Source of the DNA: Alphaproteobacteria bacterium
GTDB lineage: Bacteria; Pseudomonadota; Alphaproteobacteria; Elsterales; Elsteraceae
Reading direction: 5' to 3'
DNA: 64,000 nt
Assembly: GCA_013298565.1 (NCBI GenBank)
Contig: JAAFIC010000004.1
Coordinates: forward strand, 1 to 64,000
Part shown: positions 1 through 50,484 of the stretch, one piece after another
Numbering within the stretch: position 1 is the first letter of the stretch
Layout of the letters: each line of letters begins with the position of its first letter
Notes under the pieces: model-generated
Database searches by the model: none
Seen by the model: the letters and a program-made list of their open reading frames with translations, nothing else
Told to the model about the DNA's origin: nothing
Position numbers and translations under genes: made by a program

Positions 1-172
1 GGCTCTATAAGCCGCATCAGGCGTGTTTGACACGCCAAGCGTGTCGGGTGAGGCGGCGGCCAAGGGCGCGGATGCGCCCGGCGATGCGCTTGGCGCGTCA
101 AACGCACCGGGCGGCGAGGGCTAAAATAAAGCGAGAGCATCGTGCGTCAACTATGACGCACGATGCTCTCGC
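1..172. repeat. Mosaic palindromic repeat, copy 1 (may extend left of the window)
   Basis: This non-coding stretch shares blocks with 42738-42815 and 50356-50484. The shared core is a hairpin at 64-79 (GGGCGC, loop GGAT, GCGCCC) preceded by CGGCCAA or GGCCAA. The shared right part runs from GGCGAGGGCTAAAATAAAG (114-132) into the GTGCGTCA/TGACGCAC palindrome. This copy also has a 17-nt inverted repeat (25-41 against 87-103, 16 of 17 pairing) around the core and a small perfect hairpin at 20-36. It ends in the perfect 19-bp hairpin annotated separately. It resembles REP/BIME-type intergenic elements; the family is not one I recognise by name. Confidence 0.7.
131..172. terminator. Perfect 19-bp stem-loop at the end of repeat copy 1
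   Basis: Arms GCGAGAGCATCGTGCGTCA (131-149) and its exact complement (154-172) are separated by a 4-nt loop. On the minus strand the hairpin is followed by TTTATTTTAG, so it could act as a second, back-up terminator for the amtB transcript. It also forms the right end of the repeat element, so its origin may be the repeat rather than a dedicated terminator. Confidence 0.55.
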
Positions 173-183
173 CTTTGCCAAAC

Positions 184-31492: not shown

Positions 31493-32521
31493 CTAAGCCG
31501 CCCTGCCCTCCGCAACGGCGTGACAGGCAACATAGCCTTCGGCGGCAGGAACGAGCGCTGGGCGTTCCTGCGTGCAACGCTCGTTCGCCAGCGGGCAGCG
31601 CGGATGATAGAAGCACCCCGACGGCGGGGTGATGGGGTTGGGGATTTCGCCTTGAACCGGCAACCGCTGCCGCCCGCTCATAGCAAGGTCCGGCACGGCA
31701 TCCAGCAGCATCCGCGTGTAGGGATGGCGCGGCGCGGTGAACAACTGGCGGGACGGCGCAACTTCCACCAAACGGCCCAAATAGAGCACACCCACCCGCG
31801 TTGCCATGTGCCGCACAACGGCAAGATTATGGGAAATCAACAGGTAGGTTAGCCCAAACTCCGCCTGCAAGTCCTTCATTAGGTTCAAAATCTGTGCCTG
31901 CACCGATACGTCGAGCGCTGATGTCGGCTCGTCGCAGACCAGAAATTCAGGATTACCCGCCAGCGCGCGGGCGATGGCGATACGCTGGCGTTGCCCGCCC
32001 GAAAACTCGTGGGGAAACTTTACCCCATCGGCGGGATCGAGGCGCACGAGGCGCAGTAGTTCGGCAACCCGCGTGGCAATGGCCCCGTCCTCGGATAAAA
32101 TACCGAAAGCCCGTAGCGGCTCCGCAATGATCGTATCGACGCGCATACGCGGGTTTAGGCTGGCGTAGGGGTCTTGAAAAATCATCTGGAATCGCCGCCG
32201 CAACCGCCGCATCTCGGCGGCATTGCCGACTTTCGTAATATCGGTGCCATCAAAGCGGATTTCGCCGTTCGTTGGGCGCAGCAACCCCACGATCATTTTA
32301 GCGATGGTGGATTTCCCCGACCCCGATTCGCCAACCAGCGCGAAGGTTTCGCCCTTGGGGATGAAGAAGCTAACGTCATCAACCGCCTGGAGCGATTGTT
32401 TCGATGCGCCTTCAAGCACGCGGTTCAGCCAGGGTTTAGACACGTCGAAAACGCAGCGTAGCCCCTCGACAGTCAACAGCGGCACGGCGTCCGCGTGGGA
32501 TGCAGATGCAACGGCGGTCAT
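31493..32521 (-). CDS. Dipeptide/oligopeptide ABC transporter ATPase (DppF/OppF type)
   Basis: This 342-aa ATPase has Walker A (GESGSGKST), signature (FSGGQRQRIAIARALAG) and Walker B (LVCDEPTSALD). It ends in the oligopeptide C-terminal domain with the cysteine cluster CFYHPRCPLANERC. It pairs with the second ATPase to power the importer. Its start overlaps the stop of the neighbouring ATPase gene by 4 nt. An unusual insertion near the N-terminus (SKPWLNRVLEGASKQSLQ) is typical of the F-type subunit. Confidence 0.93.
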   Translation of the reverse strand: MTAVASASHADAVPLLTVEGLRCVFDVSKPWLNRVLEGASKQSLQAVDDVSFFIPKGETFALVGESGSGKSTIAKMIVGLLRPTNGEIRFDGTDITKVGNAAEMRRLRRRFQMIFQDPYASLNPRMRVDTIIAEPLRAFGILSEDGAIATRVAELLRLVRLDPADGVKFPHEFSGGQRQRIAIARALAGNPEFLVCDEPTSALDVSVQAQILNLMKDLQAEFGLTYLLISHNLAVVRHMATRVGVLYLGRLVEVAPSRQLFTAPRHPYTRMLLDAVPDLAMSGRQRLPVQGEIPNPITPPSGCFYHPRCPLANERCTQERPALVPAAEGYVACHAVAEGRAA

Positions 32522-33525
32522 CGGCGCGCCTCCAGGCTTAAAGCGGTCAATTGAGCTTCATCGAGAAAACAGGCAACGCTCCCTTTGCCCACCGCGCGCA
32601 CGGGCGGGCGTTCTGTGCGGCACTGATCGTTGGCAAAGCCGCAGCGCGGGTTAAAAGCGCAGCCCTTGGGGATATGGGTAAGGCGCGGCATGGAGCCGGG
32701 AATCTGGATTAGTCGTTCGGCCTCTGCCTCGGGATCGGGGATCGACCCCATTAGGCCCTTGGTGTAGGGGTGGCGCGGCGATTTAATCACATCGCGCACG
32801 GGGCCAATTTCCACAATGCGGCCCGCATACATCACCGCCACGCGGTCTGCCGTTTCGGCGATCACGCCCATATCGTGCGTGATGAGAATGACGGCAGTGT
32901 TCTTCTCCCGGCACAGGCGTTTGAGCACAGCAATGATTTGCGCCTGCACCGATACGTCGAGCGCTGTTGTCGGCTCGTCCGCAATCACCAACTCCGGCTC
33001 GGCAGCTAGCGCTAGGGCAATCACGACGCGCTGGCGCATCCCGCCAGAAAACTCGTGCGGGTAACTATCCAGTCGGCGCTCTGCGGCTGGAATCCCCACT
33101 TCCATCAGCAGATCAACCGCCCGTTGGCGCGCTTCCGCCTCCGACAGCGGCAGATGCGTGCGGATCGTCTCGATCAACTGCTCGCCAACGCGGTACAGCG
33201 GGTTAAGCGAGGTTAGCGGGTCTTGGAACACCATGCCGATGCGCCGCCCGCGAATTTTCCGCAACTCCTCGGGTGGCAGACCATTGATCTGCTGGCCCTT
33301 CAGGCGAACGGTGCCGCTGGCGATGCGACCCGGCGGCTCCAGCAAGCCAATCAAGGCGGTGCCGGTGAGCGATTTGCCCGCGCCGGATTCGCCTACCAAT
33401 CCCAGCACTTCGCCGGGCATTAAGGAGAAGGAAATTTGATCGACCGCGCGTAAAATGCCGCGCCGGGTGGGGAATTCCACCACCAGATCGCGCACCTCAA
33501 GCAGCGCTTCAGAGGTTTCGGTCAT
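32518..33525 (-). CDS. Dipeptide/oligopeptide ABC transporter ATPase (DppD/OppD type)
   Basis: This 335-aa ATPase has Walker A (GESGAGKSLTG), signature (FSGGMRQRVVIALALAA), Walker B (LVIADEPTTALD) and the C-terminal cysteine motif CAFNPRCGFANDQC. It contributes one of two nucleotide-binding domains of the peptide importer. It begins 3 nt after the permease stop, and is therefore cotranscribed with it. Confidence 0.93.
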   Translation of the reverse strand: MTETSEALLEVRDLVVEFPTRRGILRAVDQISFSLMPGEVLGLVGESGAGKSLTGTALIGLLEPPGRIASGTVRLKGQQINGLPPEELRKIRGRRIGMVFQDPLTSLNPLYRVGEQLIETIRTHLPLSEAEARQRAVDLLMEVGIPAAERRLDSYPHEFSGGMRQRVVIALALAAEPELVIADEPTTALDVSVQAQIIAVLKRLCREKNTAVILITHDMGVIAETADRVAVMYAGRIVEIGPVRDVIKSPRHPYTKGLMGSIPDPEAEAERLIQIPGSMPRLTHIPKGCAFNPRCGFANDQCRTERPPVRAVGKGSVACFLDEAQLTALSLEARR

Positions 33526-40861: not shown

Positions 40862-42730
40862 ATGCGTTTGTCCTCATGCTTGCTTGTGTCTGTGTCCTTG
40901 CTCGGCCTTCCCGCGCTTGCTCCCCCCGCGCTTGCTCAAGGCGTCGGCGCGCCGCCCGTCGAGGGACCGGTTGCCCTATTGGAGCCGGTCAATGTTACCG
41001 CTCAACGCCTGCCCAGCCGGGCCGCGGAAACCGGCAGCGCCCTAACCATACTCACCCCAACCGAGATTGAGCGGCGCGGCGCGGTCGAAGTGCTGGACCT
41101 GTTAAAACGCGCCCCCGGTGTTGCCATTAGCCGCAATGGCGGTTTTGGCGCTACCTCGGGCTTACGCATTCGCGGGTCTGAGACGGGGCAAGTGTTGGTG
41201 CTCATTGATGGCGTGCGTGTCAATGATAGTACCGATATCAGCGCGGCCTATGATTTCTCCGGCCTTACCGTCGATGGCGTCGAGCGGATCGAAATCTTAC
41301 GCGGGCCGCAGTCGGCACTCTATGGCAATGACGCGATGGGCGGGGTCGTGAATATCATCACTCGCAAAGGGCGTGGACCCGCCAAAATCACTGGGCTGGT
41401 GGAGGCCGGAAGCTATCAAACTTTCCGCCAGCAAGCCGGACTGTCGGGCGCGCAGCAAGGGTTTGATTACGCCCTCACCGCCGCCCACACGCAAACCAAA
41501 GGCTTTTCGCGCATTTACGCGGGGCCGGAAAAAGACGGCGCGGAGCACCTGAGCCTAACAGGGCGGGGCGGCTATCGGTTTTCCGAGCAGTTTCGCTTGG
41601 GCGTTTCCGGCGGCTATCAAAAGCTCGATGCCGATTTCGACCCCGGCGCTACCCGCGACGGCCCGGCCTCGGTCGCCACCGAAAAACTCTTCGGGCGCGT
41701 CGATGGCACGCTGACGCTGCTGGACGGCACGTTCGAGAATATCCTCTCCCTCACGGGCAGCGATACCGACCGCGCTTACGACGAGCCGTTGGGTTTCTAC
41801 CGCACCTCGCGCTACGAGGGCCGCAGCTTTGGCGCAGAGTATCAGGGCAACCTAACGCTGTTCGATAAGGACGTGCTGACCGGCGGGCTTGCAACCCGCA
41901 CCGATACAGCCAGCACCACGATCGTGGGCAAGGCCGGGCCGCGCTTTAGCCAAGATACCCAAAGCGCCTTCGCCCAGTACAAGTGGAAAGCGACGGAAGC
42001 CTTCACTGTCACTCTCGGCGGGCGGTATGATGATGTGGAGAGCTTCGGCGGCAAGGGCACTTACCGCGCTGCCGCCGCTTACCGCATTGCTGGCACAGGC
42101 ACAACCCTTCGCAGCAGCTACGGCACGGGCGCGAAAGCCCCTACCTTATTCCAGCGCTTCGATCCGCAGTTCGGCAATAGGAATCTCCAGCTCGAAAGCA
42201 GCCGGGGTTTCGATGCCGGGATCGAGCAGGAGGTGAGCAAGACTCTGACCCTCTCGGCGGGTGTTTTCCAAAATCGCTACCGCAACCTTATTCAGTACCA
42301 AGGCGCGGGCTACACGAACGTGGGCCGGGCAACGACGCGCGGGATAGAGTTGGGCGCAACGTGGACTGGCGTTCCAGACCTGACCCTTGCCGCCAATTAC
42401 ACTTTCTTAGAAGCGGAAGACGGCGCGACGCATCTCCGCCTCCCCCGCCGCCCGAAGCATACGCTGAACTTGACTGCCGACTACGCGATTACCGAGACAT
42501 GGCAGTTGGGCGGCGCGATGCGCTTCGTCACGGAACAGAAGGATAATGGCTTCAGTGCCGACAAAATCCCGCCGGGGCTGATTTTTGATGCGCGCACGTC
42601 CTACAAAATCACTAACGGCGCGCAACTCTACCTGCGGGCCGACAATCTGTTCGATGCCGATGGCCGCGAAACCGCCCGCTATCGCGCCCCTGGCCGCTCG
42701 GCTTATGTGGGCGTGAAGGCGGAGTTCTAG
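40862..42730 (+). CDS. btuB: TonB-dependent vitamin B12 receptor BtuB
   Basis: This 622-aa outer-membrane receptor has a signal peptide (LLVSVSLLGLPALAPPALAQ), a TonB-box-like VNVTAQR, a plug domain (GLRIRGSETGQVLVLIDGVR; RIEILRGPQSALYGNDAMGG), a 22-strand barrel and a terminal Phe. BtuB identity rests on the riboswitch upstream and btuCD downstream, together with size. It imports cobalamins with TonB energy. The ATG has AAAAGGAG at 7 nt. Confidence 0.92.
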   Translation: MRLSSCLLVSVSLLGLPALAPPALAQGVGAPPVEGPVALLEPVNVTAQRLPSRAAETGSALTILTPTEIERRGAVEVLDLLKRAPGVAISRNGGFGATSGLRIRGSETGQVLVLIDGVRVNDSTDISAAYDFSGLTVDGVERIEILRGPQSALYGNDAMGGVVNIITRKGRGPAKITGLVEAGSYQTFRQQAGLSGAQQGFDYALTAAHTQTKGFSRIYAGPEKDGAEHLSLTGRGGYRFSEQFRLGVSGGYQKLDADFDPGATRDGPASVATEKLFGRVDGTLTLLDGTFENILSLTGSDTDRAYDEPLGFYRTSRYEGRSFGAEYQGNLTLFDKDVLTGGLATRTDTASTTIVGKAGPRFSQDTQSAFAQYKWKATEAFTVTLGGRYDDVESFGGKGTYRAAAAYRIAGTGTTLRSSYGTGAKAPTLFQRFDPQFGNRNLQLESSRGFDAGIEQEVSKTLTLSAGVFQNRYRNLIQYQGAGYTNVGRATTRGIELGATWTGVPDLTLAANYTFLEAEDGATHLRLPRRPKHTLNLTADYAITETWQLGGAMRFVTEQKDNGFSADKIPPGLIFDARTSYKITNGAQLYLRADNLFDADGRETARYRAPGRSAYVGVKAEF

Positions 42731-42734
42731 AGGC

Positions 42735-43799
42735 GTGGACGATAAATCGGACGCGACTCTAAAAGCAGCCATTGAGGCTGCGGCCAAGGGCGCGGACGCG
42801 CCCGCCCGGCGAGGGCCAATCATAAAGCTAGGGGGGCTTTTGGCGCTGGGGGCGGCTGCCCTCGCGGCCTTCAGCCTCAGTCTGTTCTGGGGGGCGCTCC
42901 CGCTGCCCCCTGCAACAGTTCTTGCAGGACTGTTCGGCCAGGGGGAGGCTGCGTTGATCGTGCAGGAAATTCGCCTGCCGCGCGCCGCCCTAACGCTGTT
43001 AATCGGCGGCAGTCTTGGCCTTTCCGGCGCGGCTTTGCAGGGGCTACTGCGGAACCCGCTCGCGGAACCCGGCTTGCTCGGCGTCTCCAGTTGGGCGGCA
43101 CTGGGGGCCGTTATCGCGCTCTACTTCGGTTTTTCGGCAGAAGTCCCGGTCTCGCTGCCCGTTGCCGCCCTGGTGGGGGCTGCGATTCCATCGCTTGCCC
43201 TCCTCAGCCTTGCCCAGCGCGACGCGCGCACGGGGCCGCTGATTCTGGCGGGGATCGCCCTGTCCTCCTTCGGCGGTGCTCTGACTGCGCTGGTGCTGAA
43301 CCTTGCCCCCAACCCCTATGCCATTTCCGAAATGGTGCTGTGGTTATTAGGGTCCGTCCGGGATCGGTCGTTCGACGATCTCGCCCTGGTCCTGCCGTTT
43401 ATCGCGGTTGGTTGGGGATTGTTACTGTCTTGTGCGCGCGACCTTGATGCGCTGACCTTGGGGGAAGAGGCGGCGGCCAGCCTCGGCATCCGCCTGCACT
43501 GGCTGAAAGCCAGACTGATCGTGGGGGTTTGCCTGTCTGTAGGGGCCTCGGTTGCGGTTGCGGGCAGTATCGGCTTCATCGGCCTTGTCGTGCCGCACCT
43601 CATTCGCTGGATCGCCGGGCCGTCGCCGGGCGCGATCCTACTGCCCTCGATGATCGGCGGCGCGTTGCTGCTCACGCTCGCCGATCTTTCTGTGCGGATC
43701 ATCCCCAGCAGCGGCGAGCTTCAGTTGGGCGTCGTCACCGCCCTCATCGGCGCTCCCGCCTTCATCGCGCTCCTTTGGCGCTATCGGAGCGAAGCATGA
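42735..43799 (+). CDS. btuC: Cobalamin ABC transporter permease BtuC (FecCD family)
   Basis: This 354-aa protein has about ten membrane helices. Family landmarks are VQEIRLPRAALTLLIGGSLGLSGAALQG, LLRNPLAEPGLLGVSSWAALG and GSIGFIGLVVPHLIRWI. It starts at GTG 42735, four bases after btuB. Its first about 27 residues, up to ARRG, are encoded by a copy of the palindromic repeat family (42738-42815), and no better start follows the repeat. The cytoplasmic N-terminus therefore appears to derive from repeat DNA. Its stop overlaps btuD by an ATGA. Confidence 0.9.
   Translation: MDDKSDATLKAAIEAAAKGADAPARRGPIIKLGGLLALGAAALAAFSLSLFWGALPLPPATVLAGLFGQGEAALIVQEIRLPRAALTLLIGGSLGLSGAALQGLLRNPLAEPGLLGVSSWAALGAVIALYFGFSAEVPVSLPVAALVGAAIPSLALLSLAQRDARTGPLILAGIALSSFGGALTALVLNLAPNPYAISEMVLWLLGSVRDRSFDDLALVLPFIAVGWGLLLSCARDLDALTLGEEAAASLGIRLHWLKARLIVGVCLSVGASVAVAGSIGFIGLVVPHLIRWIAGPSPGAILLPSMIGGALLLTLADLSVRIIPSSGELQLGVVTALIGAPAFIALLWRYRSEA
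42738..42815. repeat. Mosaic palindromic repeat, copy 2, within btuC
   Basis: It is highly similar to 50361-50440 over about 70 bp: TAAATCGGACG, a C/T-rich block, GCCATTG, then GGCCAAGGGCGCGGA and GCGCCC. The core hairpin 42788-42803 has the same GGGCGC/GCGCCC stem with a loop base change (GGAC). It keeps the reading frame open and encodes the start of btuC. Confidence 0.75.
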
Positions 43800-50355: not shown

Positions 50356-50484
50356 GTGCGTTAAATCGGACGTGGCTTTAGGGGCCGCCATTGCGGCGGG
50401 GGCCAAGGGCGCGGATGCGCCCCCCCCCCCCCCCCGGCGAGTGAAAAAAATAGCCGATAGCATGGTGCGCCTAACTTAACGCAC
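50356..50484. repeat. Mosaic palindromic repeat, copy 3, with terminal inverted repeats
   Basis: This 129-bp element is bounded by GTGCGTTAA (50356-50364) and TTAACGCAC (50476-50484). It contains the family core hairpin 50407-50422 (GGGCGC, GGAT, GCGCCC), then a run of 16 C (50420-50435), and the GGCGAG-A-rich right half shared with copy 1. No gene lies inside. The terminal inverted repeats and modular interior resemble a small non-autonomous element. Confidence 0.75.
50420..50435 (+). repeat. Homopolymer of 16 C
   Basis: Sixteen consecutive C within repeat copy 3, 133 nt upstream of a DMT transporter gene. Such tracts mutate by slippage; the length could also be an assembly uncertainty. Confidence 0.85.

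Follow-up and report, generated by a model that had tools for sequence, protein, structure and literature searches.

A MITE-like palindromic element inserted at the start of btuC in an Elstera genome, and its probable contribution to the BtuC N-terminus

Rickettsia palindromic elements (RPEs; Ogata et al.; reviewed in PMC10969869 and PMC2229807) include copies that lie in frame within conserved protein genes. The enterobacterial repeats ERIC/RU-1, YPAL/RU-2 and RU-3 (Delihas, PMC2759123) are MITE-like and are likewise found fused in frame with genes, as in the N-terminal fusion of RU-2 in YP_0349 wbbJ (PMC2759123); ERIC/RU fusions are also described in PMC2229807. The QMITEs of Coxiella burnetii extend or alter annotated proteins, including one C-terminal extension that ends just downstream (PMC5896051). 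In-frame fusions of repeats to genes are already known, and the case described here adds an unusually complete before-and-after record.

The genome studied belongs to Elstera, a freshwater bacterium, and comprises 3.02 Mb in 126 contigs; the window, the 64,000-nucleotide stretch whose numbering is used below, corresponds to contig C61. Comparisons were made with Elstera litoralis Dia-1 (NZ_LAJY01000058; L051; G002), the nearest named relative found, and with a second Elstera species (G001). Compared by description, the repeat at issue resembles the RPEs in being palindromic, about 100-150 bp long and carried by an alphaproteobacterial host. It differs in that the host is Elstera (Rhodospirillales), not Rickettsia; that about 2 of 50 copies lie in ORFs, as against nearly half of the first-reported RPEs (PMC10969869); and that the in-frame copies are missing one or both terminal hairpins, one of them apparently supplying a start codon. 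The ERIC/RU repeats belong to a different sequence family, and the Elstera case has an empty ancestral site and a start-codon displacement documented in congeners. QMITEs are again another family, and in Elstera it is the N-terminus that is affected. No description of this Elstera family was found in the literature searched, and three of its loci (L001, L002, L007) gave no Rfam match at the gathering threshold.

The locus is a putative B12 uptake cluster in which a TonB-dependent receptor gene is followed by btuC and then by an ABC-ATPase-like ORF with an open frame. Its features are:

40862-42730, plus strand: TonB-dependent (BtuB-like) receptor gene (ORF; Pfam TonB_dep_Rec 1.1e-47, Plug 1.5e-25)
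42716-42724, plus strand: host-derived Shine-Dalgarno sequence AAGGCGGAG, lying within the receptor gene's 3' end and shared unchanged with E. litoralis
42728-42831, plus strand: element remnant that runs from the left-end TA as far as a residual CTAG and lacks the right terminal hairpin (family matches; alignment with L003 and L002)
42728-42761, plus strand: decayed left terminal hairpin (TAGAG...CTCTA), containing the GTG start (alignment; family hairpin)
42735-43799, plus strand: BtuC-type permease ORF, 354 aa when read from the GTG inside the element (preferred start)
42762-42815, plus strand: element core, AAAGCAGCC...CGAGGG, encoding KAAIEAAAKGADAPARRG in the btuC frame
42816-42831, plus strand: element tail CCAATCATAAAGCTAG, one nucleotide longer than CCAAAATAAAGCTAG of copy L003, the in-frame TAA removed
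42840-42842, plus strand: rival in-frame TTG 3' of the element, with AGGGGGG (42830-42836) ahead of it

The permease ORF is of the FecCD/BtuC type. Pfam FecCD (PF01032) matches residues 43-349 at 2.5e-80, and the solved E. coli BtuC (1l7v) matches at 9.9e-41 with an alignment that begins at query residue 34-35, about 15 residues of the 1l7v chain coming before the start of the match. The protein is 93% identical to BtuC of E. litoralis and 79% identical to that of G001. These matches place a conserved permease domain in the putative uptake cluster.

The repeat at the start of this gene is genuine, its matches far exceeding chance. Searching the genome with 151 bases spanning the btuC start gave about 45 hits, the strongest apart from the query locus at E=1.7e-28; merging resolved 49 copies, to which protein-level searches added a few more, such as C88 and C24:37335, for a total of about 50. 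The repeat had been placed at 42738-42815 in the first-pass annotation, and although it does lie there, its extent is slightly larger (42728-42831). Nine same-family genomes were searched: G001 holds three matches and E. litoralis six, and the six others hold none, so among these genomes the family is found in Elstera only, and it expanded in the studied lineage. Two further copies in the window are:

1-175, plus strand: family copy 1, with nested modules, truncated where the contig begins
50346-50492, plus strand: family copy 3, in the stop codon of an upstream ORF (ending in RAEEF), with a run of 16 C

The C run (window 50420-50435) is a possible slippage site or sequencing error. Variants of 169-199 bp carry nested palindromic modules in the core (L041, L048, L036 and window 1-175).

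The full element measures 135-170 bp, with a hairpin at either end and TA flanks within YTAR targets; most of the copies are 138-170 bp long. A full copy reads TA-GAGCCGCGCGCC..TTAA..GGCGCGGCTC-TA through the left hairpin; the core AAAGCMGCCATTGAGGCKGCGGCCAAGGGCGCGGATGCGCCCGCCCGGCGAGGGCTAARATAAARC follows, and after it the other hairpin, TAGAGCGTCTTGCGTCA..TTTACGCAAGACGCTCTA. Structure prediction over 11 copies gives 41 pairs, eight of them with compensatory changes, and the terminal hairpins covary. Each end is both a hairpin and an inverted repeat, with TAGAGC read inwards from both sides. The base before TA is C or T at all scored left ends, and the base after TA is A or G in 34 of the 36 scored right ends. 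IS630 elements are reported to insert at TA with TA duplication, preferentially in CTAG (PMC2170065 and a reference cited there), and the Elstera family resembles IS630 sequences and TA-flanked MITEs (PMC2170065) in its TA flanks and CTAG preference. It is also short (within 100-300 bp), present in many copies, lacking a transposase gene, bounded by terminal inverted repeats with TA duplication, and variably present among relatives. Taken in aggregate, the sequence data suggest a non-autonomous MITE-like palindromic element, probably of the IS630 type. REP/RAYT palindromes are recognised by a tag, GTAG or CGTC, together with a RAYT transposase; the TAGAGC ends and TA duplication of the Elstera element seem instead to point elsewhere.

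The mobilising partner may have left a trace. In contrast to IS630 sequences, the only transposase found here is a remnant, a single 5'-truncated DDE_3 (IS630-type) ORF (C120; L114:1420-1998, plus strand). Its left end is gone; at its downstream end stands CGATGCTCTAG, which matches the right end of many element copies. This is suggestive of a remnant of the partner and goes no further. No intact IS630-type partner transposase was found in the three Elstera genomes, and in G001 and E. litoralis none of this type was found at all.

That the repeat was inserted at the btuC start is strongly supported by empty sites in both congeners. In E. litoralis the btuC site is free of the repeat and the empty CTAG target is intact (TTCTAGTG): the receptor ends GGCGGAGTTCTAGTGCGC, its TAG stop overlaps the btuC GTG start, and BtuC begins MRFTGLAALGAAALAAF. 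The G001 gene, also repeat-free, begins MHARLLLAALAG. A later start in repeat-free relatives had been predicted, and it lies about 29-31 residues later in both; the same N-terminal residues in such relatives, named in advance as contrary evidence, were sought and not found. Four further sites were compared, of which two (C38 and C41) are empty in E. litoralis and two were uninformative, flanking synteny being lost or the spacer different. Because btuC is repeat-free in both E. litoralis and G001, parsimony places the insertion in the studied lineage. The converse reading, in which the repeat was ancestral BtuC N-terminal coding sequence later copied elsewhere, found no supporting evidence: orthologues throughout the class, those of Elstera included, begin near helix 1 without it, E. 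litoralis and G001 hold a few copies elsewhere and none at btuC, and we give this reading almost no credence. The insertion at btuC is carried by one genome only, which counts against the preferred explanation. An assembly artefact that joined a repeat to btuC would be in keeping with the several draft contigs that end within element copies (C6, C126, C61). It is highly improbable here, since the btuC copy, being diverged and truncated, is unique, and both of its flanks are continuous with the conserved operon. Elsewhere in the same uptake cluster, G001 has a diverged element copy about 1.2 kb 3' of btuC (L109:1751-1826; C30:157750-157825).

The position of the insertion is informative about its consequences. 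The TA target sits within the receptor stop TAG (42728-42730). The element would have entered the TA of a CTAG that held both this stop and part of the overlapping btuC GTG, moving btuC farther from its ribosome-binding site while the receptor retained TAG as its stop. That retention follows from the first base of the element, a G directly behind the target TA. The opposite end also begins with G, so TA plus G restores a TAG stop whichever way round the element inserts.

Consistent with this, the placement of the family is far from random. Among 37 copies with defined ends, scored against ORFs of at least 90 aa, 15 lie exactly in a stop codon, 21 are intergenic and one is inside a gene. The first-pass annotation had described the repeat as intergenic; this holds for part of the family, and many copies are exactly in stop codons (for example C41:18033, C42:40322, C105:44403 and window 50346). 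Gene interiors are strongly avoided (1/37 copies, against 303/364 YTAR sites in the window; p about 1e-22). With the available non-coding YTAR sites in the window as the null, stop-codon enrichment is modest (15 copies in stops and 21 between genes, compared with 12-15 and 49-56; Fisher p about 0.02). A stronger enrichment obtained with simple open frames (35/77 ends) shrank under this null and was set aside. The btuC insertion is one more stop-codon event of this kind, at a site where the stop overlapped a start codon. It is doubtful, though conceivable, that the family is shaped for harmless insertion into stop codons, TAA or TAG becoming TAG, with the element taking over the downstream start and N-terminus wherever stop and start overlap.

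Since insertion, the btuC copy has changed. The left end is kept, the core is nearly perfect, and host sequence resumes at the residual CTAG. As first reported, the btuC frame through the core reads AAAKGADAPARRG. Two further points of that report need correction. In copy 3 the AKGADAP frame does not reach a TGA directly after GGCGAG; it runs on through the 16-C run as AKGADAPPPPPRRVKKIADSMVRLT and then stops. Nor did insertion as such keep the frame: intact copies stop in it, and it closes shortly after the core in all other scored copies except two degenerate ones. A one-base insertion and loss of the right hairpin most likely opened it later. The right hairpin would have been lost after insertion, probably when CTAG repeats recombined to delete it, and the element tail would have gained one base; together these changes would have produced the frame that now runs from the element's GTG into btuC. 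The ancestral GTG position, read from E. litoralis, is now GGG. BtuC would then be translated from GTG 42735, 4 nt past the receptor stop, by way of the host's original Shine-Dalgarno sequence, and the roughly 30-32 element-encoded residues (MDDKSDATLKAAIEAAAKGADAPARRGPIIKL) would form a cytoplasmic extension ahead of the first membrane helix. Alternatively, the insertion damaged btuC expression, leaving a gene that is decaying or weakly translated by reinitiation and an N-terminus with no role. Removal of the stop/start overlap and loss of the old GTG are what such damage would look like. It is nonetheless very unlikely: beyond its start, BtuC is undamaged (93% identity with the E. litoralis protein; Pfam FecCD at 2.5e-80), and the ATPase frame downstream is open.

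The remaining requirement is a choice of start codon. GTG 42735 stands about 8 nt from the host Shine-Dalgarno sequence, whose duplex with the anti-Shine-Dalgarno is worth -6.1 kcal/mol. The first-pass annotation had found no good alternative start after the repeat, which was too strong: TTG 42840 is in frame, and the AGGGGGG 3 nt upstream gives the best such duplex among the candidates (-9.4 kcal/mol). If BtuC began at this TTG, the element would be an untranslated spacer and the open frame upstream fortuitous. Opening is easier there (15.8 kcal/mol, against 19.7 at GTG 42735), the resulting protein is near its orthologues in length, and chance open frames are not rare in this GC-rich DNA, as the E. 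litoralis element-before-ATG case described below illustrates. Against this, TTG is a weak initiation codon, and in the G001 orthologue the TTG at this alignment position simply encodes Leu; the 3-nt spacing from the full AGGGGGG is short; and the codon lies more than 100 nt past the receptor stop, where the coupling of the ancestral overlap would be lost. The charge ahead of the first helix differs as well. The GTG-started protein has six K/R there and E. litoralis and G001 have one each, whereas the TTG-started protein has none. We consider a start at TTG 42840 somewhat unlikely; initiation at both codons would not be separable from the single-start models. Receptor coupling, codon type, the opened frame and charge all count for GTG 42735, which is most likely the BtuC start, with its N-terminal ~30-32 residues derived from the element. 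For the preferred reading as a whole, MITE insertion followed by decay and a BtuC start at the element's GTG 42735, we estimate a probability of roughly 0.65. In the proposal that the BtuC N-terminus was built from a repeat, the insertion stands, translation from inside the element is likely, and the TTG start is its less probable competitor.

Read in this way, the locus is a clear record of how a small mobile element rewrote the point at which translation of a conserved transporter begins within an operon, the empty site being preserved in sister species. It may also indicate a general route, from insertion at overlapping stop and start codons through hairpin loss to the opening of a frame.

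Other copies bear on whether the element can be coding. A 69-nt antisense remnant without either terminal hairpin (C65:20532-20600) lies inside a DUF6456 gene (Pfam 9.5e-8; L044:1408-1986, plus strand). The G001 homologue has no element, and both flanks match it in the same frame, with MS..RGLRSSTRSK..IGR in common before the element and HAAAE.LAE.FA after it. In the codons for RGLRSSTRSK, read from the two sequences, the genes differ at synonymous positions only. The element can thus be retained within a protein, as Rickettsia palindromic elements are. The DUF6456 copy is an RPE-like in-frame copy inside a conserved gene; whether the btuC copy is one depends on the start codon.

An open frame through the element is weak evidence by itself. 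It was considered as proof of coding and rejected, because E. litoralis has an intact copy within an open frame 5' of a glycosyltransferase gene whose own ATG follows GGAGAGGATA (L135; G002 C168:3932-3979). Repeat-borne starts may be real or may mislead gene callers, and this glycosyltransferase is an example of such a start-annotation trap. Two further candidates were set aside: C48, in a 503-codon open frame, was taken as fortuitous since no homology supports the element part, and C52, a third degenerate copy, was treated as intergenic, beside a fabG-like gene. Separately, the window contains two direct 125-nt copies with 76% identity, 1046 nt apart (31890-32014 and 32936-33060).
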